Shown here: positions 2 through 31,118 of the stretch, in pieces | How positions within the stretch are numbered: position 1 is the first letter of the stretch | Layout: every line of letters begins with the position of its first letter | IMG/VR virus record: IMGVR_UViG_3300009059_000042 | Coordinates: 1-31,274 of that record | DNA length: 31,274 nucleotides | Reading direction: 5' to 3' (one strand) | Origin: a virus | Position numbers and translations under genes: made by a program | Notes under the pieces: model-generated | Database searches by the model: none | What the model was told of the DNA's origin: nothing | Seen by the model: only the letters and a program-made list of their open reading frames with translations

Positions 2-3000
2 GTCATGGAAGCTGCCAACTTCAACACTGAGCGTGAGAACGCATACAAAGAAACCATTGAAGCTAAAACCGATGGTGACTTTGTGGCTGGCCTTAAACGA
101 ATTGGCCGCGATGCAATCGACAGCGTTACCAACTCGACTATGGACGGTTCAACCCTCGCAGACGGGACATTGAATGCTCTTGGTTCCCTGCTTGCAGCTG
201 GTCCTTTGAGCAAAGGTGTTCGTGCCCTCGGTGGTGCAGTGTTGCCCACTGCTGTTAAGACAGCCGTTCCTGCAAGCACTGCTGCTGCAATCAGCAAGAC
301 AGCACCTGTGCTTACTTCTATTGGTGGTATCGAGGCTGGTGGCTCTTACCAGCAAGTCGTATCCGACATCATGGGCCGTGACCATGAAACGCTCATGGCT
401 GAGTCGCCAATGTACCGTGAACTCATTGGCCAGAATGTCAGCCAAGAAGACGCCAAAGCTGAAGTGGCAAACAAAACTGGTTTGCTGTCTGCTGCCATCA
501 CCTTCCCGGTTGCGGCTGCAACAGGTTCGCTTGTCAGCAAGTTTGAAGCAGCGCCCTTCGTAAACCAGGGGATTGCCAAAGCTGCCAGTACCTTACTTCG
601 TGAGCCAACTGAAGAAGCTATCCAAGGTGGTGCTTCCCAGCTGGCACAGAACTATGCCGAAACCCAAATCTCAAATGAAAACAAAGACTTGGCTGAAGGC
701 GTTGGCCGTCAAGTTGGTGAGGGTGCTCTCTACGGTCTAGGCATGACCGCAATCACCCAAGGTCCGGGTGCTGCTGTTCGTACCGGGGCTAAAACACTTG
801 CTGCTGCTGGCAGTGCAATTGGTGGCAGTCTGAGTGCCCGTGCTGACGCTGTACGTGAAGCAAACGAAGCTGCCTCCCCGATCTCTGACTCGGTTGTATT
901 TGAAGCCGCAACTGGTGCAGCAGCTAACGCAGAAGAAGCCAGTGCTGCTATGCGTGAGGCTGTGGCCACTTCGGAAGCTGCTCCAGAAGAGCAAGCAAAA
1001 GCCAACAGCTACATCGACAAGCTGGTATCCGCAGCTCGCTTTGATGAAGCAGAGCTGGCAAATCCCTATGTGCCTGAAGCAGCCCGTACTGCTCTCGTTG
1101 GTTCAAGCAGCCGTGTCGAAGCTGCTCAACGTCTGGTTGATGTCATTGATGCAATGGAAGACGGCTCGTCTGAACAACTCAGTGCAAGCTACGCTCTGCA
1201 ACAGATCATTGAGCCAATCAACAACATTCTGATGAGCGAAGAGTTCTCTGATGACGCTATCCCAGAGAACAGCCCAGCAGGCGCTATGCTGCGTGAATAC
1301 GATGGGATGATGGCATCGGCTATGGGTAGCCCCAAAGTCACTGCTGGCATGGCCCGTATCGCCCAGATCGCAGCCAAAGTAGCTGCTGAGCAAGTAGCCA
1401 ATCCTCCAGTGATCAATGATGAGACAGTCGCTACCCCTGAAGGTCAGCAGAACGTACAGAACACAATTGCCGTGGCTTCTATTGAGCCAGGCAAAGGTGA
1501 TTTGGGGACTGTGGAACAGGTGCTGTATCAGGTTTCCAAGGGCAACGTGACCGTCACCCCTGAACAAAAGGCTGCACTAGATACGACTGTTGCTCTGCTT
1601 CGTGCTGCACGTTCTGCTAGTGCGAAAGCAGAAAGTCTCGGACTCAATTCCCGTGAGGAACTTGTATCCCGGAATATTAAGACCGATGACGGTGAGAAGG
1701 GGAAATCTGCGGTGCAGTTTGCACAGGAAGTTATGTCTGCGTGGAAGGCGGGTAACCGTGATCTCGCAGCTGACACCCTGCTCCATCTCCGTGAATTTGC
1801 GGAGCACATGGGCAACAAGGTCAAAGCCCTTAATGCACATTTTGTTGCGGGCAATCCGCAAGCTCCAGGAATCGGTTATGACTCCCTTACCCCTGATCGT
1901 AGTTGGGTGTCGTCTAACACCCGTCTGTTTGTAAACACAGGCAACCAAAAGTCTATCGAAAAGGCTCAACGTATTGCCGGTGAAGCGGCTTTCGTGGCCG
2001 ACGTGCTTAATGGGTTGGCTGATGCCTTTCCCGATTTGAGTGTTGAACATATTGATGTTACTCCGCTGGATTCGGCACTGAACAAACCAGCTTCTGAGAT
2101 TTTCTCGGACTACAAAGCGGCTCGGCAGCGTTCGTCTGTTGCTGAGTCTGATGCTACCAGTACGGTTGTGCCGGAAGCACCTATTGTTGCTCAGGAAGAA
2201 GTGCAACCTGTCACAGCAGAAACTACCCAAGAAACCGTTGATACGGTGGTAGAACCTGTAACTGAAGTTGTCGATGCCCCGGCTGAGACTGTTGCTCCTG
2301 TAGCTACAGTAGCGCCTGCACCTGTGAAAGCACCCACCGTTGGTCAGGGACTGGCTGCACTTTTCCCTTATCTGGCTGGCAAGGTGAACTACTTCACCAA
2401 GTCGTTTACTCTGCCGGAAGAACCACGCACTCGTACCATTGGTACTGAAGCGCCACTTGCCTTTGTAAAACAAGCACTTAGCAGTTCGATGAACCAGGCT
2501 GTTCTACAAAAAACTGGCACGGACATTCCTGTTGGCGTGATCTCGGCGTACCAGGATTATCTAGGTCTGGGTGACAAGATGGTTTCTGCTTTGCAGAAGA
2601 ACCTTGGAAAATTCCTGACCGAGAAAGGTGTTGGTGAGCGATTCAAAAACGGTGTGGATGTGAACCGTTGGGTTGAAGGCAAAATCCTGAACATCACTGA
2701 AGAGGTAAATGGGAGTTTTGTTTACAACCAAGAATTGGTTGAAGGTGCTGTTCTTGCCGGCCTCCAGTGGCTGCTGACTGCTGATCAGCTTGGCTCCATT
2801 CTGGATCACACTGATGTGGCTGAAATCACCGGGCTGAACGAAGAAGTCATCTCTGAGGACTTGGTGACTGACTTCAACGAAGGCATGGCCTCCTTTGAAG
2901 CTGTGCAGTCTCTGGCTGCAAAGATCACAAATTACTGGGGTGTTACAGCTTCCCCGGATGGCCTGCGTGGCTACACCAAAGGCATTCCTGAAGTCATGGC

Positions 3001-6000
3001 TTCTGAGATTCTGCGTGTCTTTGCTGACAACGGTGCAGTGACGATTAAAAAAATTGCCCTGCCAAAAGTGGAAGGTGTTACCCCTAAAACCCCGGAACGT
3101 GTTGTTCCTATGGTGTTTGCTCGGGATACCAAAGACAGCGAAGGTTCCCCACTGTTGAAGTTTGTGGATGCCATTGAGCAGACAGTGATGCTGGAACCGG
3201 AAGAGACCTATTTCATTGGTGACGATGCAATCCCACCTGTCTCGCCTACTCAGATGCGCAACCCACTTGTGCAGAACACACCACAGCAGTTGGAAGCTAT
3301 TGAGAACGAACAGGCTACGCCGTACTACGTGGATACACGTATGGCTGCGTTGTACCAGTCGCTTGGTATGGACAAGGTGCTTGATTTGTTCGGGTTGGTT
3401 CCACCGGAACAAAAGACACTGAACATCAACCACGCTGCATCTGAAGATGGCAAATACCGTGGCATGGTTGCAGCTTTCCAGCACATGACTGGTTACCTTG
3501 ATTCTGTGTCGAACTACGCACGGAACAACGGCAAAGCTCTGGGTGAAACTGTCTTCCGTTACGGATTCAATATCAGCCGAGTTGGTCGTTTGCAGATGCT
3601 TGGTAAGTACAGCCCACAAGCCAACAAGATGGTTCGTGAGTTGTTCATGCCTACTCGCACCACTCTCGATATGAACCAAGGGAAAAGCCGTAAGCTGTTT
3701 ATGCTTGCTGCTGCACAGGCTCTTGATATCAAAGTGCACAAAAAAGACACCAATGCTGCAATTGCTGAAGCAGAGCTGCTTGTGTCTGGTTCTTTGGCTC
3801 CAGCTATTGAAGCTCTGTCTGGCTTCTTTGGTAGCTTTGCTGAGCCGGTTGACGCGAATGTCCCAGTTATCGAAGCAAGCCCTGAGCTGAATGGCACCAT
3901 CAAAAAAGCATTTGCTGATGCTGGTGTTCCGCTGACTCCAGCTGCTTTGCATGTAATCACTGAACTTGCTTGGCTGGGAAAACTGACGCCAACACAGAAA
4001 GCAACATTCACTACCAACTTGTATCTAGAAGCGGACGGCATTACCAACGGGCCAATCAATGCCATGATGCTGTTTGCTTCTGGGATGTTTACAACCAGCT
4101 GGCTGAAGAACATGGCCAAAGGTGGTCTGTTTGTTAATCGTGGTCCAATGACTGCGAACGAACAGTACAGCCAGTACGACAAGAAAGACTTGTACCAGGC
4201 CACTACTGACGTACTCCAAGAGCAGGTAAATACCCTGCGTGAATCTCTGGGTAATGATCCTGTCATGAGTAAGCACCTCAATGAGTTGCTGTCGCTGATG
4301 GATTCTTTGCTGCCTACTCTGAGCTTTGATGGAACCAACTTGGTTCTTGATCGTGGCATTACCAAAAACCCACTGACCATTACGATTTACGGTTCTGGGG
4401 CTACTGGTATTGCTGCCAAGCTAACCAAAGCACTGGCTGACTCGATGTACGAAAAGATGTCTCTGTTGGCTCAAGCTCGCATTGATAATCCATCCATCTC
4501 GTTGGCTGATGCCGTGTTCAACGGGGATGAAGTGCAGGCCAAGAAATTCACTTCGGCTCTGTATCGAATTGGTAATTACAAAGTCTCGTTGGACAAGAAG
4601 AAGCTTGTTCTTGAAAAAGTAGCTACTTCCCGTAATGACGGGGTTGATCCTCAAACTTACACACTGACACCGGCTGAGTTCAGCAACATTCAGTCGAGCA
4701 TGCTGCACCTGTTTGTTCAGCCAATGCGTAATGCAATTGAGCAGACTGTCGGTGCAGCAACTATGGAATCTGCTGTGCTTCTTCGTCAGGCCACACAGGT
4801 TCAGTCGATCATTCTGGAACAACTGTTCAAAGATCAAGTTGCTGCTGAGATGGCTCGTAAAGCTAAGACTGACAGTGATTGGACTAAGACAGAGTTCCTC
4901 AGTGATAAAGAGCTGAAGCGCATCTACAAAAAATTGGAGCGTTTCTCTCCTCTGATCAAAACCCCACACCAGACTTTTTACGTTGCTGGTTCCAGTTCTG
5001 TGGATGTGAACGCCTCCCAGTCTTCCCGTGCATTGGACGGCTCTTTCCGTACTGACGCATTCATTCATGGGCCTAAGAATGCTGGCGTGTCGGGCATTCC
5101 TTTCCTGAACATCGGGGCAGGTGATGCGAACATGATGCAGATTGCATCCACCATGAATGGTGCACCTGATCGCACTCTCAAAATCTTTGACGGTGTGCAT
5201 TTGCCCCTGGACCTGATTCAGGATGGTAGCGTCAAGATGAACGAGGCTGTTTGGGAAACCTGGATGGGCAACCCAATGCAGGCAGTGGCTGACAGCTATG
5301 TTGCCTTTATGAAAGAGGCACCATTGACCGGGTACACCGATGCAACTCGTAGTGCATTGGTTCGTGCGTTGTTCCCACCGTCTATGTGGAAGAAGCCGGT
5401 TCCTGATGCTGAGATTGTTGCTGGCATGCAGAACCTGGTAGGCAAGCTGACAACAGCGGCAGAAAGCATTGAAGCCCGTCATCGTGTTATGGCCAAGGTG
5501 GAAACCTCTGTTGACCAGATGGCTGCTGGTGCCTCTCCTTATTTCAAAGCAGGTGAGATTGCCCTTACCGGGATGTCAAATGAGGAAGTGACCTCAGAGT
5601 TGAATGCCCTTTACCAAGAAGAGTTGGCTGAGCTTCGTAAAAACAAAGCACCTTCTGGTGATTCCACTGCTGCTATTTTGCAGGTTGCTCAGAAGCACGA
5701 GAGCGGTGCTTTTGTTATGCACAGCAGTGACTTGAAGCAATTCAGCAAAGCAACAACATTCCCAGCTGACCAGCAGAAAGTCTTGGATGAGGTTACGAAA
5801 TCTCTGGCTGCTGACGGCTACAAGATTGTGTTTGGTAACCCGCTGAAAGTGAACGAGTACATCAAAGCCACAGGTGCTGCTGGTGCTCAAGGTAGTGCTA
5901 TTCCAGCCGGTGAGATCAAGGGCTTCACCAACGTGGGTGAGAAAACAATCTACCTGTTCAACCCATCAACTGAGACTTTGATCCATGAGTTGATTCACGC

Positions 6001-9000
6001 TTCTACCTTTGAAAAGGTGTTGGCGTACTACAACAAGCAGCCTATGGGCACTGTAGAAAAAGAATCGGTACAGCGTATCGAGTCGATGATGAAACAGTTC
6101 CTGGCCATGGAAGACAACTTGGATCAGCCTAATCAGCAGCTGGCCCAGTCGTACACCGACACCGTTTCTGCCATCAAGGGCTACCTGAACAATGCTTCGC
6201 TTCCTGGTTCTGTGGCCAAAGCCGGTGCACTGAACGAGTTCATGGCTTGGTCTCTGTCCAATGAAAGTCTGATCCGTTTGGGTCAGCGGACCATGCTGGA
6301 CAAAATGGCCCGCATTGCTCGTGAGGTTGTGAAAGCCATTAAGGCCATCTTCTTCAAAAAAGAAAATGCCCCTTATGTTGGTAATGACCTGTTCAGCAAC
6401 TTGCTGTTCAACACTGCCGTTGTTATGCGAGGCAACCCAACGACTGCACAGCGTATGGCAAGCAGCGTGCTTTATCAGAACAGCCAGTACGGCCAAGATC
6501 AGCGTTTGACTGATGTGGGTGTGGCTTACCAGACACTGATTGGTCGATACCTGAACGCACCTATCCGAGCTGGTGAAGTGGCTCCACGGGATGCCGTTGA
6601 TAAAGGGATTATGGCTGGCCTGAACATCGGTAAGTCTTTCCAGGCTCGTGGCTTTAGCATGACCCAGCAAGAAGCCCATGTGTTTGAGAACATCATCACT
6701 GCTCTGGCTACAGAAGCAGCTATTGATCCAAACGCAATGGCCACTGCACAGCAGCTTTATTCTTGGGTAACCAAGCAGCTGACTGTTGAGCATTTCATGG
6801 ATGACGCAGACAGCCTGAACCCGGCTACCCGGTATTACGCTCAGGAAAAGTTCAACAGCATCATGGGTAAAAACCTTGTCGAGAATGACTTGGCTGGTCG
6901 CTCCAGTCTGCTGCCTGCTTTCCTCGCATTGGCTACTGTGAACGCTGAGTTCCGTTCTGTGCTGTCCGGTATGAAGCTGCCTAAAACAGCAAAGGATACT
7001 TCTGGTGGTCTTGATGCTCTGCTGACCAATGCTGGTAACGCTGCAATGGATAGCCTCTCCAGCCGTTTGGCTGGCATCAAGAAAGGTGACATCACCGTCG
7101 ATGCTGCCATTGATGCCCTTAACCAACGCATTGCCGATCAGGTACAGAACAACGAAACCTTCATTGACCAGTTTGCTCAGACCACTGGACGTGGTGTTGA
7201 CCGTGCAAACGAAATCGTCATAGAGGGTATGACCAAGTTGGCAGATGCTGCTTATGAGAAAGGTGCTGACCTCAACAAAGCAGAGAACAACACGATTACT
7301 CGTGCTGTTGGTGCAAGTGCTCAGGCGATTGGCATGATCCTTTCTGAAGAGCGTGGTGCTCTTGCAGCACAGGGTTTGACTGAGGCCATGAACAAAGTGA
7401 ATGGCTGGGCACCGGTGCGTTCTTTGCTGAATGACCTGGTAGGCCGTACCGACTCAAACGCCAAGATTTACGACATGATCAAAGGCGTTCGTTCTGTGAT
7501 TCAGCAGGCACGTCAGCAATTCCGGGAAGACCTGCCGACTCTGATTGCCGACAAGTTCACCCGTTCTTTGAGCAAAAAAGAATGGTCCAGCCTGTTCCGT
7601 GGTATGGGTAAAACTGACTTGGCCGTTCTGCGTGCGTATTTCGATAACAACGCCATCCGTAAAATGCTGACTGATGAACAGGATTTGGCTGCAAAAATCA
7701 CTACCTTGGAGAACTACATTCAGGGCATTGATCCAGCCAACTACGCCACTTACCAACGCAAGATGGTGCAGCTGGCCAAGTACATGAACACTGGTGTGGC
7801 CGGCCAGTACCTGCTGCGAAATGCTGAAGCCATCTCCATGCTTATTGGGCAGGAGATTCAAGGCACCTTCCAACCGAAGGATGCAACCTTTGTTGCTTCG
7901 ATTGACCAGCTGGTGACTATGTACAGCCTGCAAGACTTGGCAGTTGAAGACAAAGCTGTCTTGGCTCAATTGGCTAAAGACGAAACCGTGGGTATGGATT
8001 TTGCATTGGATTATCTGGTTGGCCAGCGTAAAGAAGAAGTGAGCAAGGCAACTCCCCGTGCTCGACTGAACGCTTTCAAAGGTCACATTCCAAGTGAACC
8101 TGCTAGCTCGCTGTCGATGGTTGTTGCCGACGACAAAGACTTTGCAAAGCTACGTGGCAAGAGCTACGTGCGTGTCGGTGATTACGTTGGCTCTAAAGCT
8201 GAAAAGAGCAAATTCAAAAAGGGCTACTACTTTGCCCCTGTAGCTGCCCGTGCCACCTTTGAGCAAGGCATCATGCAGAACGTCCGTACATCTGTGTCTG
8301 GTGTGGATGCAGTGACTGGCTACAGTAATTTGGCCACTGCTGGCCGTGTCACATCGCCAGTGATGCTGAAGCGCTTTGCTACTGCCATGCTCAAGGACAA
8401 CACCGAAGCAGAAAGCCTGATGCCTGTTTTTGGTGAAAACGGTGAGCTTGTCGCTGTAGAGCGTGCTCTTGATCCAGTGATGATGGAACGCATGCAGGGT
8501 GAAACCAGCCTGGCTGTCTCTATCGGCATCTGGCGTGGTCGTCAGCACGAGGAGTCGATTGCTGGTATCTACAACAAGGCTTTGGTTGATGCTCAATACG
8601 AAATGTACAGCAAGGACATTGCCGAAGATGCAAGCAAGCAGGATCAGTACGTTGATCTGTTTGGCTCAAATCTTGATCCTGTTGTGGCTGATGCAGTGTC
8701 GTTGCTGACACCGGAAACTCGTGCCCACATCCAAAGCGTATTTGGCAGCGAATACTATGTCCGCAAAGATATGTTGGAAGACGCAATGGGTTACCGTTCT
8801 GCTTCCATCGGTGATGCCTGGACTGGCAACACTCGTTGGTCGCCTGAAACTCAGAAGGCAGTTCAAAATTTGGCAATCAGTGCCTTTGGAAATAAGGCAT
8901 ATCAGTACCTCACTAATGCTGAGCGAATCACTAATAACTTGGTGAGCGACATGCGGGTGCTGATTGTTGTTAAGTCGGTGGTTGTTCCTGTTGCCAACTT

Positions 9001-9826
9001 GATGTCCAACGTCTTCCAGTTGGTTGGCCGTGGTGTGCCACTGGCGAATATCGTCCGTGGTATGCCCAAGAAAACAGCTGAGATTGACGCTTATGTGAAG
9101 AGCCGTCTGCGCATGATTGAGGCAGAAGCTGAATTGCGTGCTGCTGTAGGCAAACCAATTGCCGAACGCCGACTGCAAGCAGAGATTCGTTCGATCACTG
9201 ACAGCCACAAACGTATGAGCATTTGGCCTTTGATCCAGGCTGGTGAGTTCAGCTCCATTTCGGATGCTGGTGTAAGCCGCGATGAGATCATGCTGAGTGA
9301 AGGGCGCTTGCACGCTTACATTGAGAATGCGGTAAACAAGTTGCCACAGCCTCTGGGTACGCTTGGTCGTTACGCCTTGATCACCAAGGACACTGCCTTG
9401 TTCCAGGGTCTTCAGAAAGCGGTGGAGTACGGTGACTTCCTAGGTAAAGCTCTGCTGTACGATGATCTGGTCAAGCGTCAGGGTAAGTCCAAGGAATATG
9501 CACTGGGACGAATTACTGAGGAATTTGTGAACTATGATCGTCTGTCCGGTCGTTTCCGGGCAACGCTGGAGAACCTTGGTCTCCTTTGGTTCTACAACTT
9601 CAAAATCCGTTCTACGAAGGTGGCGTTGTCAATGATCCGCAACAACCCCGTACACGCTCTGATTGCAGGCGCAGCACCTGCTCCTAGTTTGTTTGGGTCA
9701 GTGGGTCTACCGACTACCGATAACATCTTCAGCAAGCTGGTTGACGGCTCCCTGGACTACTCCATTGGTCCTGGCCAAGGCTTGAGTGCTCCAGAATTGA
9801 ACCCATGGATGAATTTGGTTCAATAA
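2..9826 (+). CDS. Giant virion-encapsidated RNA polymerase (N4 vRNAP/gp50-like), 5' end cut by window edge
   Basis: This protein is a single-subunit T7-like RNA polymerase embedded in a giant virion protein that, in N4, is injected with the genome and transcribes early genes. Counting from the ATG at base 5, the TxxGR-like motif is SRVGR (1191-1195), motif A is DGITNG with D1344, motif B is RGITK...Y with R1450, K1454 and Y1462, and motif C is FDGVHLP with D1729. The R/K/Y spacing (+4, +8) equals my recollection of N4 (R666, K670, Y678). The first 280 residues are rich in Gly/Ala hydrophobic stretches, followed by a Pro/Val/Glu linker near 720-780. An HELIH motif (1994-1998), with a candidate third ligand E2078, suggests a zincin domain after the polymerase. 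The frame is open upstream of the ATG and no ribosome site is visible, so the true start is probably outside the window; 3273 residues are visible against about 3500 in N4. Confidence 0.93.
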   Translation, partial: VMEAANFNTERENAYKETIEAKTDGDFVAGLKRIGRDAIDSVTNSTMDGSTLADGTLNALGSLLAAGPLSKGVRALGGAVLPTAVKTAVPASTAAAISKTAPVLTSIGGIEAGGSYQQVVSDIMGRDHETLMAESPMYRELIGQNVSQEDAKAEVANKTGLLSAAITFPVAAATGSLVSKFEAAPFVNQGIAKAASTLLREPTEEAIQGGASQLAQNYAETQISNENKDLAEGVGRQVGEGALYGLGMTAITQGPGAAVRTGAKTLAAAGSAIGGSLSARADAVREANEAASPISDSVVFEAATGAAANAEEASAAMREAVATSEAAPEEQAKANSYIDKLVSAARFDEAELANPYVPEAARTALVGSSSRVEAAQRLVDVIDAMEDGSSEQLSASYALQQIIEPINNILMSEEFSDDAIPENSPAGAMLREYDGMMASAMGSPKVTAGMARIAQIAAKVAAEQVANPPVINDETVATPEGQQNVQNTIAVASIEPGKGDLGTVEQVLYQVSKGNVTVTPEQKAALDTTVALLRAARSASAKAESLGLNSREELVSRNIKTDDGEKGKSAVQFAQEVMSAWKAGNRDLAADTLLHLREFAEHMGNKVKALNAHFVAGNPQAPGIGYDSLTPDRSWVSSNTRLFVNTGNQKSIEKAQRIAGEAAFVADVLNGLADAFPDLSVEHIDVTPLDSALNKPASEIFSDYKAARQRSSVAESDATSTVVPEAPIVAQEEVQPVTAETTQETVDTVVEPVTEVVDAPAETVAPVATVAPAPVKAPTVGQGLAALFPYLAGKVNYFTKSFTLPEEPRTRTIGTEAPLAFVKQALSSSMNQAVLQKTGTDIPVGVISAYQDYLGLGDKMVSALQKNLGKFLTEKGVGERFKNGVDVNRWVEGKILNITEEVNGSFVYNQELVEGAVLAGLQWLLTADQLGSILDHTDVAEITGLNEEVISEDLVTDFNEGMASFEAVQSLAAKITNYWGVTASPDGLRGYTKGIPEVMASEILRVFADNGAVTIKKIALPKVEGVTPKTPERVVPMVFARDTKDSEGSPLLKFVDAIEQTVMLEPEETYFIGDDAIPPVSPTQMRNPLVQNTPQQLEAIENEQATPYYVDTRMAALYQSLGMDKVLDLFGLVPPEQKTLNINHAASEDGKYRGMVAAFQHMTGYLDSVSNYARNNGKALGETVFRYGFNISRVGRLQMLGKYSPQANKMVRELFMPTRTTLDMNQGKSRKLFMLAAAQALDIKVHKKDTNAAIAEAELLVSGSLAPAIEALSGFFGSFAEPVDANVPVIEASPELNGTIKKAFADAGVPLTPAALHVITELAWLGKLTPTQKATFTTNLYLEADGITNGPINAMMLFASGMFTTSWLKNMAKGGLFVNRGPMTANEQYSQYDKKDLYQATTDVLQEQVNTLRESLGNDPVMSKHLNELLSLMDSLLPTLSFDGTNLVLDRGITKNPLTITIYGSGATGIAAKLTKALADSMYEKMSLLAQARIDNPSISLADAVFNGDEVQAKKFTSALYRIGNYKVSLDKKKLVLEKVATSRNDGVDPQTYTLTPAEFSNIQSSMLHLFVQPMRNAIEQTVGAATMESAVLLRQATQVQSIILEQLFKDQVAAEMARKAKTDSDWTKTEFLSDKELKRIYKKLERFSPLIKTPHQTFYVAGSSSVDVNASQSSRALDGSFRTDAFIHGPKNAGVSGIPFLNIGAGDANMMQIASTMNGAPDRTLKIFDGVHLPLDLIQDGSVKMNEAVWETWMGNPMQAVADSYVAFMKEAPLTGYTDATRSALVRALFPPSMWKKPVPDAEIVAGMQNLVGKLTTAAESIEARHRVMAKVETSVDQMAAGASPYFKAGEIALTGMSNEEVTSELNALYQEELAELRKNKAPSGDSTAAILQVAQKHESGAFVMHSSDLKQFSKATTFPADQQKVLDEVTKSLAADGYKIVFGNPLKVNEYIKATGAAGAQGSAIPAGEIKGFTNVGEKTIYLFNPSTETLIHELIHASTFEKVLAYYNKQPMGTVEKESVQRIESMMKQFLAMEDNLDQPNQQLAQSYTDTVSAIKGYLNNASLPGSVAKAGALNEFMAWSLSNESLIRLGQRTMLDKMARIAREVVKAIKAIFFKKENAPYVGNDLFSNLLFNTAVVMRGNPTTAQRMASSVLYQNSQYGQDQRLTDVGVAYQTLIGRYLNAPIRAGEVAPRDAVDKGIMAGLNIGKSFQARGFSMTQQEAHVFENIITALATEAAIDPNAMATAQQLYSWVTKQLTVEHFMDDADSLNPATRYYAQEKFNSIMGKNLVENDLAGRSSLLPAFLALATVNAEFRSVLSGMKLPKTAKDTSGGLDALLTNAGNAAMDSLSSRLAGIKKGDITVDAAIDALNQRIADQVQNNETFIDQFAQTTGRGVDRANEIVIEGMTKLADAAYEKGADLNKAENNTITRAVGASAQAIGMILSEERGALAAQGLTEAMNKVNGWAPVRSLLNDLVGRTDSNAKIYDMIKGVRSVIQQARQQFREDLPTLIADKFTRSLSKKEWSSLFRGMGKTDLAVLRAYFDNNAIRKMLTDEQDLAAKITTLENYIQGIDPANYATYQRKMVQLAKYMNTGVAGQYLLRNAEAISMLIGQEIQGTFQPKDATFVASIDQLVTMYSLQDLAVEDKAVLAQLAKDETVGMDFALDYLVGQRKEEVSKATPRARLNAFKGHIPSEPASSLSMVVADDKDFAKLRGKSYVRVGDYVGSKAEKSKFKKGYYFAPVAARATFEQGIMQNVRTSVSGVDAVTGYSNLATAGRVTSPVMLKRFATAMLKDNTEAESLMPVFGENGELVAVERALDPVMMERMQGETSLAVSIGIWRGRQHEESIAGIYNKALVDAQYEMYSKDIAEDASKQDQYVDLFGSNLDPVVADAVSLLTPETRAHIQSVFGSEYYVRKDMLEDAMGYRSASIGDAWTGNTRWSPETQKAVQNLAISAFGNKAYQYLTNAERITNNLVSDMRVLIVVKSVVVPVANLMSNVFQLVGRGVPLANIVRGMPKKTAEIDAYVKSRLRMIEAEAELRAAVGKPIAERRLQAEIRSITDSHKRMSIWPLIQAGEFSSISDAGVSRDEIMLSEGRLHAYIENAVNKLPQPLGTLGRYALITKDTALFQGLQKAVEYGDFLGKALLYDDLVKRQGKSKEYALGRITEEFVNYDRLSGRFRATLENLGLLWFYNFKIRSTKVALSMIRNNPVHALIAGAAPAPSLFGSVGLPTTDNIFSKLVDGSLDYSIGPGQGLSAPELNPWMNLVQ

Positions 9827-16728: not shown

Positions 16729-17058
16729 TCAGATAGGTGTGATGCCTTTCTGAATCTCCACAGTTTGCTTTTCGGTGCGATACGTTTGACCACCTGGGGA
16801 GGTCAGCACCACGTCGAACTCAAGCACACCGGTTGGCCACTTGGATGTGTCCTTCACAGTGAGCGTAAGCTCTTTGGTGGTGATGCTGTCTACCCAGGTA
16901 ATGTCGGTTGTCTCAAAGACGAAACCGCTTGGCATGTCGTTGCCCTTCTTGCGAAATTGGGCTTTCGGATGCCAGTTGGAGTAGGTGCCGTCTTCTTCGT
17001 CAGCCGGTAAAGCGATGCTGAGTATCAGGGGGTTTCCGTGGCGGATTACGTGATTCAC
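16729..17058 (-). CDS. Hypothetical beta-rich phage protein coupled to DNA polymerase (109 aa)
   Basis: This small protein has a beta-sandwich-like pattern (PLILSIALP, FVFETTDITWVD, KELTLTVKD, GVLEFDVVLTSPGGQTYRT in successive strands, then VEIQKGITPI). The pattern recalls small immunoglobulin-like phage domains, but I do not recognise a functional family. It starts with GTG that overlaps the polymerase stop codon (GTGA), with GGAGAG five bases upstream inside the polymerase gene, so the two are translationally coupled. It is the last gene before the strong terminator. A polymerase accessory or processivity role is possible from context only. Confidence 0.75.
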   Translation of the reverse strand: MNHVIRHGNPLILSIALPADEEDGTYSNWHPKAQFRKKGNDMPSGFVFETTDITWVDSITTKELTLTVKDTSKWPTGVLEFDVVLTSPGGQTYRTEKQTVEIQKGITPI

Positions 17059-19766
17059 TTTGGCTCTCCGTTGAGGTAAGCAATGTGCTTGGCTGTGAGT
17101 TCCTGAATCTCGGATTCAGTGGCCCCATTATGCACCGTTACCTCTTCACTCCAGTCCGGGAAAAACAGCGATAAATCGCCCCCCAATTTTACCTCGTCGT
17201 GAGCAATGTCAGGGTGATCCTGCCATTGTACTGCCTTCACGAGATGCTCATTGACGTATAGCACAACACGAATGTCGTCCTTTATCAACATATATTGGGC
17301 GTCGTGGATGTGTGCACACGGGCGTATTGCCGTGCGGTATTCGCTCTTACGAACGCCGCCCATAAACTCAGCACTGGCCCGGTTGTTGAGTAGACACCAG
17401 CTCTGGCCGAGGGCGTTACCGGCAGTCCTGCCTTCAGCTTCTGCCTCAAATGGAGTTGAACGGTTACCCCGTATCACTTGATGCAGCAAAGGTGTTCTCA
17501 CACGCAGGCCGAAAGCCACGGTGACGTAGCCATCCTTGCTTGCTTGGTTCAATTTTTCCTGAACCCAGTTGATTGAAACGGCGTAAAGCTCTTTGTACTT
17601 TGCCTCGATCATCTTGGCTTTGGATTCAGAGAACCCGCAGTTTGTCATCAAGGTGATGTACGTTCCCTGATAGGTCAGAGCAAAGGTAGGTGCCTTGGAT
17701 TCCTGACGAAAATCCTTATATTTCAGTTCGATAGAGTTGATTGACGCTACCGAATTTGAATCAATGTCAGGCATCTCATTGCCGAAATACGCATAAGAAC
17801 GTAGGCAATGACCGTCGTAGCCATCGGTGTAGACCTTGAGCTTGTTTGGGTCTTTGGTTGTCAGGGCACTGATGCGGTCTTCCAATGATGCGAAGTCCAG
17901 CCCAGCGAATATCCAGCCCGGTGGTGCTTGGAAGCACGATTTCACCAGGGAACCCAAACTGAGTTTTCCTTTTTTCATGAAGCGTTTCAGCAAGGGGAAC
18001 TTCTTGAGAAGAGCCTCACTGATTTTCATTGTTACGTTGGCCGGTAGGTTCTGTAGATTTGGTGAATTACTACTCAATCGTCCAGAAACAGTGCCACCCA
18101 GAACCGAATTACCAAAGAGGTAATGCCAGCCGTCTGGCCCCAATGCTGCCTCTTTGAATGCAGGTATGAAAGAGCCAAGGATTTTATCTACAGCAGCGAA
18201 GTCGATGAGTGCTGACAACAGTTCCAAAATATCTGGATCAGTTGTGTGGTGTTGCAGCTTATCAATTGTGTCTCCGTCACAAGAGGGCTGCTTGCTGTCT
18301 GTGTAGGACAGCACTGGCAAGTTCAGTTGCTCGTAGAGCAGGTGCTGCAATTGAGGATTACTGCGTGGGTTGAACTTGATCTTGTCTGGCACTTCATCAA
18401 TCGTGATTCTTTTGTTCTTCCACTCCTTGTGCTTTTTCTCAATGTACATCTCTTTCAAGCTGTACTGAAATTGCTGAACACAGCGTGTTGAGAGCATGCG
18501 ATTAACAGCATCATCGAAGACACCTTGGAGTGCTTCCTCAACTGCCAAAACAGTTGGCATGTGCAAAGGCAAGCCAGTCAGCTGCATTTGAACAATGTCG
18601 AGTGTGGAGGGTTTGAACAGGTTTTCGTAAATCTCCAGTTGCTGATCTTGGATCATGGTTGGTTGATGTTTTCTGAAAGTAAACCAAGTGGACAGAGAAT
18701 CCACCAAGTTGTATTCCAGAAGTTTAGGCAACGGGATACGGCGAATGTCTTTTATGTCATCACCGTCTATTGCGTAGTTGCCCGCAAATTCATGGGCCTG
18801 ATGTTTTAAACCAAGCTTGTTACCGGCACAGCTATTTGTTGCCAAATAGGTGATGAGTTTTGTGCAGTCCCAGTTTTTCAGCAGTTTGCTCATGCCCTCA
18901 AGCAAACCTTCTGTGTCCAACAAGTCAGACATGAATAACTGATAGACCAGGACGTATGCGTCGAAAGCGATGTTGTGGTAAATCGCTGTCTGCATGTACC
19001 GGGTGAAGAAGCTTTTTAACAGGGCACGAACTTCAGCATTGAAGCCTTTCTTGCCATACATCTGAACTTCGTCTTTGCCTTCACCCATGACCCAAGGCTC
19101 ATTGACGTAATCAACGGCGAAGGCAATACCTTCGTGTTGGTTCCATGCAAATGAGATTGTGCCAATACCGCACTTGTGGTGCTTGAGATCAAACCCCTCA
19201 ATGTCAATGGCCAGGGGGCAGTTCATCGCCAACAGTTTTTCAAGCCAGGCAGCGATGTCTTGGGTTGTTTCTGGGTACTCTGCAAAGTGAATAATGCCGG
19301 TGCCCAGTGCTTGATACGACCCTGCCCGGTGGGCAGTTAAAGCATCCATGCCCAGTTTGATCCTGGCTTTCACCTTATCTGGATCGTAGAAAATCTGGCG
19401 ATAATTGGGCACGTAGATGACTTTGAAATTACCAAAGACAGAATCCATCACGTAACCAATGTGGGATTCCACTTTGGCTGCTTTGGTCAGTATCTTGAAG
19501 TAGTCAGAGTCAGCACAAAGAACGTACTTTGTCTTGATTCCTTCCAAGATTGGAACAAGCTCAGAGGTGATGTATTCCTTCATCTCTGCTGCTTTGGTTT
19601 TCTTCTGACCAGGGGTGTAGTGCAGCGTCATCACCATCAAGTCGTCTTTATTCAAAGACGACGTGTCGATGTACGCTTTCTTGATTTCATCTTTCTTAAT
19701 CGAAGGAACCAACAAACACACAGGGTATTCGTTGTTCTCCTGATCGGAGAAATAGGCATACGCCAT
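17055..19766 (-). CDS. Family-A DNA polymerase with 3'-5' exonuclease domain (N4 gp39-like)
   Basis: This 903-aa enzyme replicates the phage genome. The exonuclease motifs are intact: DIE (D188, E190), NIAFD (N265, D269) and YNLVD (Y352, D356). The polymerase domain has GRLSSNSPNLQNLP (562-575), motif A DFASLEDR (D624, E629, R631), motif B R687...K691...Y699 and motif C HIHDA (H821, D822). There is no 5'-3' exonuclease domain. Motif C has Ala (A823) where bacterial Pol I has Glu (HDE). The first 170 residues are an N-terminal extension unlike Pol I. Start: ATG at 19766 with GAGGAAT seven bases upstream. It follows a 168-aa gene by 11 bases and overlaps the 109-aa gene. Confidence 0.95.
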   Translation of the reverse strand: MAYAYFSDQENNEYPVCLLVPSIKKDEIKKAYIDTSSLNKDDLMVMTLHYTPGQKKTKAAEMKEYITSELVPILEGIKTKYVLCADSDYFKILTKAAKVESHIGYVMDSVFGNFKVIYVPNYRQIFYDPDKVKARIKLGMDALTAHRAGSYQALGTGIIHFAEYPETTQDIAAWLEKLLAMNCPLAIDIEGFDLKHHKCGIGTISFAWNQHEGIAFAVDYVNEPWVMGEGKDEVQMYGKKGFNAEVRALLKSFFTRYMQTAIYHNIAFDAYVLVYQLFMSDLLDTEGLLEGMSKLLKNWDCTKLITYLATNSCAGNKLGLKHQAHEFAGNYAIDGDDIKDIRRIPLPKLLEYNLVDSLSTWFTFRKHQPTMIQDQQLEIYENLFKPSTLDIVQMQLTGLPLHMPTVLAVEEALQGVFDDAVNRMLSTRCVQQFQYSLKEMYIEKKHKEWKNKRITIDEVPDKIKFNPRSNPQLQHLLYEQLNLPVLSYTDSKQPSCDGDTIDKLQHHTTDPDILELLSALIDFAAVDKILGSFIPAFKEAALGPDGWHYLFGNSVLGGTVSGRLSSNSPNLQNLPANVTMKISEALLKKFPLLKRFMKKGKLSLGSLVKSCFQAPPGWIFAGLDFASLEDRISALTTKDPNKLKVYTDGYDGHCLRSYAYFGNEMPDIDSNSVASINSIELKYKDFRQESKAPTFALTYQGTYITLMTNCGFSESKAKMIEAKYKELYAVSINWVQEKLNQASKDGYVTVAFGLRVRTPLLHQVIRGNRSTPFEAEAEGRTAGNALGQSWCLLNNRASAEFMGGVRKSEYRTAIRPCAHIHDAQYMLIKDDIRVVLYVNEHLVKAVQWQDHPDIAHDEVKLGGDLSLFFPDWSEEVTVHNGATESEIQELTAKHIAYLNGEPK

Positions 19767-28888: not shown

Positions 28889-29302
28889 CTAAGTCACTTT
28901 GCTGTGACTACAAAATTGACAACGAAAAACGTTGGCGTCTTTGTCCCAAAGCATTTCACGTAAATGACATTTTGGGACTATCTTGTTGATTAAGAAGGGA
29001 ATTTCAGGGGAGATCTTCCACATCTCACAAACTCGATTGACGATTTTCAGCGCAGCATTCCACACTTTTTGATCGTCAGGTTCTCGGGAAAGACGCTTCA
29101 TGTTTGGTTGGTGTTCCAAGCACACCTTGTCTTTTAGCTGCCATGCCAGCTTACGAATAGCGTCAGCTGTATTGTGGATGCGGATTACCAAAGCCATGGC
29201 CAAGGCGACATCGCCAGGATGCCATTGGCCCCCTGACTTGGTTATGTAGCTGCGTTGCGGTAGAGCTTTGGGGAGGGTGATGAGATTGGTACGGCTTTTC
29301 AT
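28889..29302 (-). CDS. Hypothetical protein with C-terminal CxxC (137 aa)
   Basis: A mostly helical basic protein. Residues 30-110 contain helices (GDVALAMALVIRIHNTADAI, VWNAALKIVNRVCEMW) and the tail has C113 and a CQFC pair near 129-132, which may form a zinc site. Start: ATG at 29302 with GGAG six bases upstream. It is the first gene after the gene-free structured region and precedes the Cys-rich gene by 9 bases. I recognise no family. Confidence 0.68.
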   Translation of the reverse strand: MKSRTNLITLPKALPQRSYITKSGGQWHPGDVALAMALVIRIHNTADAIRKLAWQLKDKVCLEHQPNMKRLSREPDDQKVWNAALKIVNRVCEMWKISPEIPFLINKIVPKCHLREMLWDKDANVFRCQFCSHSKVT

Positions 29303-29330
29303 CTGCTGCTCCGAAAATACAGGGTCTTGT

Positions 29331-29410
29331 TGGTGCCGGCTTGCGCCTGTTCCGGCTGGCCTTCGGGTCTAGTGGCCCTGGCGGCTTCGCTCCTGCTCGG
29401 CCTGGCCCGA
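29331..29410. other. GC-rich gene-free segment with GGCC inverted repeats
   Basis: This stretch is about 70 percent GC (42 of 60 in 29341-29400) against about 50 percent around it. It holds several short inverted repeats (CCGG...CCGG, GCCGG...CCGGC, GGCC...GGCC), so either strand could fold tightly. It lies between the proposed structured RNA and the 137-aa gene. A frame across it (29163-29426, minus) overlaps the 137-aa gene and looks accidental. It could be the 3' domain of the RNA or acquired DNA. Confidence 0.6.
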
Positions 29411-29502
29411 TTGCTTGACGCCTCACGACGTTACCTTCCTGCCCAGTTGGAATGAAACGGCAGCGTTAAGCGCCTTCCCAACTGGTTTTGATGTGCGATA
29501 TT

Positions 29503-29678
29503 GCACATCGGACTTGAACATGGTCAGGTGCGTCCACCCTACAATTCCCACGCATGGGGGAGTCGAACCCCGGCACGGATGTTGTGTTCTCAGAGGCTGC
29601 CATAACCCTAGTTTCCGCAGCGTGATCACTACCGTGTTGCATCCCGTCCAGAATTGGCCGTGTTCAAGTCCGATGTGC
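29503..29678. repeat. Exact 18-bp inverted repeat enclosing a tRNA T-arm-like hairpin
   Basis: GCACATCGGACTTGAACA at 29503-29520 is the exact reverse complement of 29661-29678; the arms enclose 140 nt. A second, inner pair CAATTC/GAATTG (29542-29547 and 29651-29656) lies inside. Between them the minus strand carries GGTTCGACTCC (29559-29569), identical to the tRNA T-arm consensus, but no cloverleaf can be built around it. Confidence 0.85.
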
Positions 29679-29717
29679 CCTGCATGCAGGCTATCGGGCA
29701 AAACTGATCAACTCACA
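29657..29717 (-). repeat. 61-nt direct repeat, copy 1, with nested hairpin
   Basis: This copy aligns without gaps to 29852-29912 at 48 of 61 positions. Both copies conserve the nested stems CCGAT/ATCGG and CCTG/CAGG, while the apical loop bases differ (CATG here, TTTC in the other). The differences fall mainly in loops and unpaired positions, the pattern expected of RNA under structural constraint. Confidence 0.8.
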
Positions 29718-29851
29718 ATGGTATTGGTAATGAGTGAAAATTCATTCCCTGTTGCTTGCACTAGAAAACTGCGGCGACATAAATGCCCGTGTTCCTCATC
29801 GTCAAAGCTCAGAATCTTGATTCACCCATTCCAATACCATTGCGGGTATAA

Positions 29852-29912
29852 GCCGTGTTTACGTCCGATGTGACCTGTTTCCAGGTTATCGGATAAGACT
29901 AATCAACTTGCA
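29852..29912 (-). repeat. 61-nt direct repeat, copy 2, with nested hairpin
   Basis: Second copy of the hairpin unit, 195 bases from the first. Here the inner stem gains one more pair (A29873 with T29886), where copy 1 has a C-C mismatch. Each copy sits immediately beside one strand of a long helix, as if the same module (hairpin plus long arm) had been duplicated. Confidence 0.8.
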
Positions 29913-30137
29913 TCAGGTGGAACACTCTAACAGGACGCCTCACTCATTCGTCCACATTTCGCCCGTGTAACAAGCCCCGGAGCGGGTTAGAGGTACGTGT
30001 CTTGGCAGCTACTTGAGGTGGGCCGACTCCCACTTGAATTTCTCTTTCTGGCTCAGTGCCCTGAGCTGATTTCGCTGTTGCACACATCAAAGTGTTCCCT
30101 GATGCAAGCTGATTAACCTAGAGGTTACCGCTAAAGC

Positions 30138-30335
30138 TTACTCTTCTTCAGCAGCAGCACCGGCTTCGCTTTTTTTGATGCGATTGCGGATGGCCTGCAT
30201 ACCTTCGATTACCTCGAAAGTATCGGCTTCCGTTTCAACCACGACAACGGCGTTGTCTTCGCGGATGGCGACGATGGCCGAAGTACGGATGTCGATTTTC
30301 TTGCCGTTTTTCTGAGTTGCACGAACGAAGCTCAT
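30138..30335 (-). CDS. Small hypothetical protein (65 aa), FlbD-like beta pattern
   Basis: The pattern of MSFVRATQKNGKKIDIRTSA, IVAIREDNAVVVVETEA and FEVIEGMQAIRNRIKK resembles a small beta protein with a terminal helix, like FlbD-type proteins, but the similarity is only a pattern. The tail is acidic (EAGAAAEEE). AAGGAA lies five bases before ATG at 30335. Its stop codon is 23 bases from the first base of the proposed structured RNA. Function unknown. Confidence 0.7.
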   Translation of the reverse strand: MSFVRATQKNGKKIDIRTSAIVAIREDNAVVVVETEADTFEVIEGMQAIRNRIKKSEAGAAAEEE

Positions 30336-30623: not shown

Positions 30624-31118
30624 TTAAACCGAGTCCCGTGCAGGCACAGGTTTGTCTTCTTGGTTCTGGTATTTACCGTTGTAGCTGGTTGGGTGCTTGA
30701 CCTCAGTGAAAATCACTTGAGCAATGCCCGATCCTGCTTTGATGTGAAGCACATCATTGCCGTGGTAAACGAGTTCCAGCGTCAGAAAGCCATCCCAACC
30801 GGGTTCAATAACTGTGTTGAAAACCGACAAGCCTTTACGTGCCCAGGTCGATTTGTCGTGTACCACGCCAACCAAACTGGTCGGCATTTGGAACTCTTCA
30901 ATGGCAGATGCCAAGGCAAAGCGACCTTCGGAATACACACCATCAACCACTACTTGCGGTCCAAGCGTGCCTTTTGTGAAAAAGGACACATCTTGTTTGA
31001 TGCGTATGTCATAACCAGCTTCACCTAGCCCATAGCTGGTGCCATGGGCAGTTTCTTTCAAAGGAACCATTTCGAGAATTGGCTCCATGGATAGCAAAGA
31101 ATCGCGGTTGATAATCAT
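30624..31118 (-). CDS. dcd: dCTP deaminase / dUTPase-family protein (Dcd-like)
   Basis: This 164-aa protein has the Dcd signature: SYGLGEAGYDIRI (28-40), FALA...EEFQMP (67-79), DKSTWARKG (88-96), then NTVIEPGWDGFLTLEL (101-116) with E115 at the position of the catalytic Glu (E138) of E. coli Dcd, and GSGIAQVIF near 129-137. The family converts dCTP to dUTP, or directly to dUMP in bifunctional members, feeding thymidylate synthesis by the ThyX encoded 3.6 kb downstream. Monofunctional and bifunctional forms cannot be separated by eye. ATG at 31118 follows the VWA-like stop by 2 bases; AAGAGA is upstream. Confidence 0.88.
   Translation of the reverse strand: MIINRDSLLSMEPILEMVPLKETAHGTSYGLGEAGYDIRIKQDVSFFTKGTLGPQVVVDGVYSEGRFALASAIEEFQMPTSLVGVVHDKSTWARKGLSVFNTVIEPGWDGFLTLELVYHGNDVLHIKAGSGIAQVIFTEVKHPTSYNGKYQNQEDKPVPARDSV

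Follow-up and report, generated by a model that had tools for sequence, protein, structure and literature searches.

A folded RNA outside all catalogued classes is very probably encoded in a gene-free stretch of an N4-like phage

Does the long gene-free stretch of an N4-like phage genome encode an RNA and, if so, on which strand and of which class? The DNA analysed here, termed the window, is an IMG/VR virus record of 31,274 bases from an N4-like phage (Schitoviridae). Simple hexamer-based gene calls leave a single gap of 450 nt or longer in the window, at 29303-30137 (835 nt). The initial annotation placed a single large structured RNA at 29443-30114. The roughly 670 bases that it named are indeed gene-free, but the span is slightly short at both ends, because the gap called extends over 835 nt. 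This stretch very probably encodes a folded RNA that belongs to no catalogued class.

The gene-free stretch and its closing helices

The window encodes a DNA polymerase (17055-19766, minus strand) that matches those of Achromobacter, Pseudomonas and Erwinia N4-like phages at 60-68%, and a 3273-aa ORF on the plus strand (5-9826), which by its size and place is a candidate for the N4-type virion RNA polymerase. The order of the minus-strand genes upstream of the polymerase is dCTP deaminase, two small ORFs, the gene-free stretch, a DUF7740 gene, small ORFs, ThyX and rIIA. Promoter and terminator signals around the stretch do not exceed chance, and its flanking ORFs yield no finds when they are used as search bait. 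The positions of the features are summarized in Table 1.

Table 1. Positions of features in the window and of the RNA elements compared with them in related phages
Feature	Position	Strand	Details
dCTP deaminase, upstream syntenic marker	30624-31118	-	Pfam DCD 2e-16; phrog_1663 1.7e-54
Upstream ORF, 68 aa	30409-30615	-	
Upstream ORF, 65 aa, adjoins gene-free stretch	30138-30335	-	weak phrog_7594 match
Gene-free stretch, structured RNA candidate	29303-30137	-	gap in gene calls; MFE -312.8 kcal/mol (835 nt)
Domain 1 (predicted)	29900-30115	-	18-nt helix 30098-30115/29900-29917, and about 12 bp inward (30086-30097/29920-29931)
Domain 1 conserved core	29985-30090	-	helices 30082-30085/29997-30000 and 30074-30077/30006-30009; hairpins 30051-30066 and 30018-30033
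Linker module copy B	29852-29908	-	hairpin CCGAU..CCUG-GAAA-CAGG..AUCGG, GNRA loop; local fold -15.5 kcal/mol
Domain 2 (predicted)	29708-29851	-	closed by helix 29831-29847/29711-29727
Linker module copy A	29657-29713	-	self-complementary CCTGCATGCAGG
Domain 3 (predicted)	29503-29678	-	closed by exact 18-bp helix 29661-29678/29503-29520
tRNA-type T-arm in domain 3	29557-29571	-	GGGG-UUCGACU-CCCC, canonical T-loop
Competing hairpin	29490-29509	-	GAUGUGC-AAUAUC-GCACAUC; alternative pairing of the 3' arm of the domain 3 closing helix
3' hairpin	29443-29485	-	CCAGUUGG...CCAACUGG
Downstream gene, DUF7740 protein, adjoins gene-free stretch	28889-29302	-	Pfam 4.9e-13; phrog_7614 3.5e-43
Five-phage module	L057 2900-3030; L077 3594-3720; L078 3596-3715; L079 3766-3880; L080 3929-4057		
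R2 domain (model R2)	L266 1876-2036; L267 8164-8341; L300 7811-7975		after dCTP deaminase
Hammerhead-like sequences	L057 1650-1698 (RiverRider); L081 2507-2562 (Philippe)		
Hammerhead-like sequences	L279 19312-19266; L286 15636-15590	-	
tRNA-like shells	L276 13393-13190, 13182-13058; L273 19393-19278	-	
tRNA-like shells	L263 9889-9968, 10032-10126		

Three tandem minus-strand domains closed by helices of 18-30 bp are predicted for the stretch, and the mean base-pair probabilities of these closing helices are 0.97-0.999 upon ensemble folding. The exact 18-bp inverted repeat to which the initial annotation had drawn attention (29503-29520/29661-29678) and the 18-nt inverted repeat with 17 matches that closes domain 1 are the top two long-range repeats of the entire 31 kb, and a third closing helix (29711-29727/29831-29847) is present between them. 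Shuffled 31-kb sequences contain on average 0.017 such inverted repeats, and one of 60 shuffles had any as good. The fold of a 715-nt sequence is more stable than those of 20 of 20 dinucleotide-shuffled sequences on each strand, with z values of -6.9 for the minus strand and -7.6 for the plus strand, so that the shuffling control proposed with the initial annotation comes out in favour of the structure. When 62 further 715-nt pieces of the same genome (31 positions, both strands) are folded as a control, the gene-free stretch ranks first among the 64 folds of this length. Coding stretches also beat their own shuffles, by a mean of -15 to -20 kcal/mol with a standard deviation of 10 kcal/mol, as compared with -40 and -45 kcal/mol here, and therefore the fold energy alone makes the stretch just a 2-3 standard deviation outlier. 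The strong signal is the closing helices, not the total fold energy. The gene-free stretch does not stand out in a local folding scan with 160-nt windows, because its helices reach across longer distances than this.

The initial annotation assigned the RNA to the minus strand on the ground that the mismatched positions of the two longest helices would be G-U pairs there. This ground does not hold. In the longest helix (29503-29527/29654-29678), each of the three mismatches reads as G-U on the plus strand and as C-A on the minus strand, and the strand-informative mismatches of the domain 2 closing helix are about even, with about one for each strand. Only the mismatches of the domain 1 stalk favour the minus strand. 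The G-U pairs of the window helices are rejected as an argument for the strand, which must come from other evidence, namely the comparison with phage RiverRider.

Domain 1 and its counterpart in phage RiverRider

In domain 1, a stalk of 18 bp that continues for about 12 bp more is followed by a conserved core and then by more hairpins. The core contains an internal loop, GCAA/CCAAG, between its two 4-bp helices. A search of related records first gave a 47-nt match of 81% in RiverRider, located in a gene-free region on the same strand, 12 kb upstream of the DNA polymerase of this phage. A covariance model, R1, that was built from window 29985-30090 alone matches Xanthomonas phage RiverRider (L076:2518-2624) at 106 of 106 positions with an E value of 8e-8 when 53 relatives (794 kb) are searched, and gives no other match in them. 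RiverRider alone stands out also among 52 whole records (E 7.6e-9; next best 0.15). It is the sole blastn match in the phage and plasmid collections, although at an E value of 0.06 in 2.3 Gb, and it is the only genuine one among the matches listed in motif scans of IMG/VR and GTDB contigs, because the others contain no such domain on inspection. The closest relatives by DNA polymerase (L006 and L037, 78%) are left out of the comparison, because both contigs stop 2.7 kb upstream of the polymerase.

Six of the 19 base pairs of the core differ between the window and RiverRider and none is broken; one pair is changed on both sides, and five are changed to G-U. These five would be mismatches if the sequence were read on the opposite strand. 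RiverRider has the same internal loop and identical UCGGCCC and GCUGCCAAGACAC segments, and it shares the domain 1 core by a full-length structural match with compatible pairs. Thus, a homologue in related Schitoviridae, for which the initial annotation suggested looking, exists for domain 1. Because the pairs are kept with wobbles that are valid on one strand only, domain 1 is probably a structured RNA encoded on the minus strand; with two sequences compared, the evidence is good but not overwhelming. The minus-strand structured RNA proposed earlier is therefore retained for domain 1 on the strength of this comparison, but not on the G-U grounds on which it had been proposed. These wobbles also bear on the question of whether the inverted repeats act in DNA, controlling replication or transcription without any RNA. 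Such a role would account for perfect inverted repeats that are symmetric on both strands and for a plus strand that folds as well as the minus strand, but it is hardly probable, because a homologous domain that keeps five pairs by G-U wobble is workable only in RNA of one strand.

The RiverRider sequence (NC_048703, 17609-17715) resembles that of the window in that the 106-nt core matches end to end with its pairs kept, and in that it is located in a gene-free region downstream of dCTP deaminase. It differs in that its own domain is closed by another, 11-bp helix and is immediately followed by a hammerhead motif and seven tRNAs, whereas the window lacks tRNAs and adds two domains that do not resemble the RiverRider ones.

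The conserved core also helps to judge whether the stretch is merely a cis-acting mRNA element, in which the stalks serve as RNase III sites or decay barriers that part the dCTP deaminase mRNA from the downstream genes, without any function in trans. The stretch sits between co-directional genes, its stalks of 18-30 bp suit RNase III, the promoter search found none, and a switch in processing could arise from the competing pairings at the 3' end. However, a simple processing site needs neither the conserved internal loop, junction and hairpin loops of domain 1 nor about 800 nt, and this explanation is considered unlikely, if still worth keeping in mind.

Domains 2 and 3 and the comparison with known RNA classes

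No homologue of domains 2 and 3 is detectable by blastn in the phage and plasmid collections, and the covariance model of domain 3, R3, gives no convincing match (best E 0.04). Of the single large RNA proposed in the initial annotation, domain 1 is thus backed by a homologue, while the unity of the whole stretch is not. The domains are joined by a 57-nt module that is present in two direct copies with 81% identity and that contains, after domains 1 and 2, the hairpin CCGAU..CCUG-NNNN-CAGG..AUCGG. The 3' half of copy A also serves as the 5' side of the domain 3 helix, and the hairpin of copy A and the domain 3 stalk are mutually exclusive, because both use the same bases. The calculated energy of this hairpin is -13.1 kcal/mol, and pairing with the 3' arm of the domain 3 stalk instead would give a duplex of -41.9 kcal/mol. 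The 3' arm has an alternative pairing of its own (Table 1), and a conformational switch at the domain 3 stalk is possible according to these models.

Domain 3 contains a tRNA-type T-arm, and one such T-arm in 835 nt is unusual, because they occur at 0.017 per kb outside gaps. The minimum-energy fold does not contain this T-arm, but the cost of enforcing it is 0.6 kcal/mol. A tRNA-like fold was taken to require a T-arm stacked beside an acceptor-type helix and a D-type loop bearing GG. The enforced T-arm adjoins the helix CAAUUCU/GGGAAUUG in an arrangement as in the tRNA elbow, which is a post hoc reading of a domain without a homologue. The hexamer GCAACA is found in all three domains (window 29630-30090; GUGCAACAG, AAGCAACAGGGAA and AUGCAACACGG), and GGAACAAG is found in the R2 domain of other phages described below.

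Comparison with 4227 Rfam families by covariance search gives no match at the gathering threshold and none relevant at E values up to 10, in agreement with the earlier impression that the stretch belongs to no known class. The stretch contains no tRNA with cloverleaf and anticodon (0 genes by ARAGORN, none by Rfam). No tmRNA is detected in the window by ARAGORN or Rfam, whereas the same Rfam scan detects permuted tmRNAs (RF04321, RF01849) in gene-free stretches of two related phages, L279 and L286. The hammerhead core CUGANGA...GAAAC is absent from both strands of 29303-30137. GOLLD, whose profile is included in Rfam, occurs in phages and prophages near or around tRNAs, and ROOL contains many helices; both are large ornate phage-borne RNAs near tRNA islands that form RNA cages of unknown function (PMC12286853). 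The stretch resembles them in size, ornate fold and phage origin, but it matches neither the Rfam model of GOLLD, which covers its conserved 3' region, nor that of ROOL. With respect to the tRNA island, relatives have tRNAs or tRNA-like elements near the equivalent position, while the window has none. A very divergent GOLLD, ROOL or other known large RNA that the covariance models miss would fit the size, fold, phage origin and tRNA-island context described for these RNAs (PMC12286853). It is most improbable, because nothing relevant appears among the Rfam families even at the relaxed E value. At most, the stretch works like GOLLD or ROOL without being a member of either class.

Gene-free stretches of related phages and the proposed function

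Long closing helices are found 13 times in 37 kb of gene-free gaps and 3 times in 795 kb elsewhere in all Schitoviridae loci; these counts include one phage twice, and two of the three helices outside the gaps sit in smaller gaps just after dCTP deaminase. T-arms are enriched 50-fold in the gene-free gaps of Schitoviridae. In the nearest fully sequenced relatives, the DNA about 0.5 kb after dCTP deaminase is also gene-free, over about 0.8 kb or more, and contains tRNA-like elements. In Rothmandenesvirinae (JWAlpha, Axy04, Axy12, Axy13, Axy24, phiAxp-3 and inbricus), small ORFs follow dCTP deaminase, and a gene-free region of at least about 0.8 kb then separates them from thioredoxin. ARAGORN reports 'tRNA-???' in two of them, a label that is given because a normal anticodon loop is missing, and T-arms are found also outside any tRNA. 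In JWAlpha (L314 1473-2389; NC_023556), the annotated hypothetical ORFs CH29_gp41-43 overlie a tRNA-like structured stretch and may not be real genes. The tRNA-like shells listed in Table 1 have acceptor, D-type and T-arms with an enlarged or altered anticodon region, and one has an acceptor helix extended to 19 bp.

RiverRider, Pokken, Paxi, Piffle, PB119 and Philippe each contain a region of 2-3 kb in which 5-8 tRNAs occur alongside conserved modules that are not tRNAs. One module common to five phages is closed by CUGCUACCRCAUGU/GCAUGCGGAUAGCAG and has eight doubly compensated pairs and covarying hairpins. L266, L267 and L300 have in the dCTP deaminase slot one helix-closed domain of about 165 nt, the R2 domain, in which 14 pairs are doubly compensated across the three sequences. 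This domain is like those of the window in being helix-closed and in the same genomic slot after dCTP deaminase, but has no conserved core in common with them, and the window is rejected as a member, because model R2 matches the stalk only, with at most 8.8 bits. The slot is not universal: only some of the 28 loci with dCTP deaminase have an adjacent gap of at least 450 nt and many have none, and in L273, L279 and L286 the gap is on the other side, several kb upstream of dCTP deaminase. A full hammerhead core (CUGAUGA, stem II, GAAAC) with closing stems occurs in gene-free tRNA/tmRNA regions of four Schitoviridae loci; the RiverRider motif scores 25 bits with Hammerhead_3, which is below the cut-off. 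Hammerheads are already known from phage intergenic regions (PMC3088659). The permuted tmRNAs of the two N4-like contigs (L279 17532-17914 and L286 15639-16009, both on the minus strand) score 99.8 and 90.8 bits with RF04321 and also match RF01849, while ARAGORN missed both; their tags, read by eye, are ANDNSPVMALRLAA and VNDNDVVSDYRMAA.

The position of the stretch, which equals that of the tRNA-bearing stretches of relatives, raises the possibility that it is a decayed tRNA island, composed of functionless former tRNA genes and spacers. The lone T-arm of domain 3 would then be a relic, and the lack of a detected tRNA in the window would be expected. This is very unlikely, because domain 1 retains all its pairs, partly by compensation, and the long near-perfect stalks persist despite the compact genome.

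The explanation that we prefer, to which we give about an even chance, is that the minus strand of the stretch encodes a noncoding RNA some 700-835 nt long, which has three helix-closed domains, is processed at its stalks and acts in trans like the RNAs of tRNA islands. The stretch would be read from the minus strand together with the neighbouring genes; the strand is given by the comparison for domain 1, and transcription is presumed. The RNA would fold into three tandem long-helix domains joined by the duplicated hairpin linker, as computed, with the evolutionary test limited to the 106-nt core of domain 1. It might then be excised from the mRNA at the long stalks by RNase III or a comparable nuclease. 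The leader-trailer stalks of pre-rRNA, at which RNase III cuts, are a model for such processing. The freed RNA could conceivably act in trans through the conserved core of domain 1 and a possible tRNA-like face of domain 3, most likely, if so, on host translation or a tRNA-directed defence. Both processing and trans action are suggested by analogy. Phages use tRNAs against tRNA-directed defences, as two papers describe (PMC10264068, PMC11555353), which is context and not evidence.

This explanation is supported by the helices beyond chance, the lack of genes, the RiverRider domain 1 with its compensation, and the position where relatives keep RNA genes. Against it count the single homologue of domain 1 and none of domains 2 and 3, the fold energy of only 2-3 standard deviations, the plus-strand wobbles in the longest helix, the lack of promoter or terminator signals above chance and the slot that is not universal. 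A broader reading, which is tentative and somewhat doubtful, is that the gene-free stretches of Schitoviridae gain, lose and recombine whole RNA modules, namely helix-closed domains, tRNA-like shells in which other domains replace the anticodon arm, hammerhead motifs, permuted tmRNA and tRNAs, and that the window encodes a tRNA-free, three-domain RNA with which a new class of large phage RNAs acting in trans begins.

A review of N4-like phages does not mention tRNA, intergenic or noncoding RNA (PMC7650795). A full-text search of open-licence papers gives no report of such gene-free stretches, which is weak evidence of novelty. To our knowledge, only a few large ornate phage RNAs are known, such as GOLLD and ROOL, which lie near tRNA islands and whose function is open. 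The stretch very probably adds to this short list of large phage RNAs without a known job. As a further, unrelated RNA in a comparable place of another phage family, it suggests that large phage RNAs have a general home in tRNA islands. N4-like phages on cultivable hosts (Achromobacter, Stenotrophomonas and Xanthomonas) would provide a system in which the function of large RNAs can be tested by deletion.
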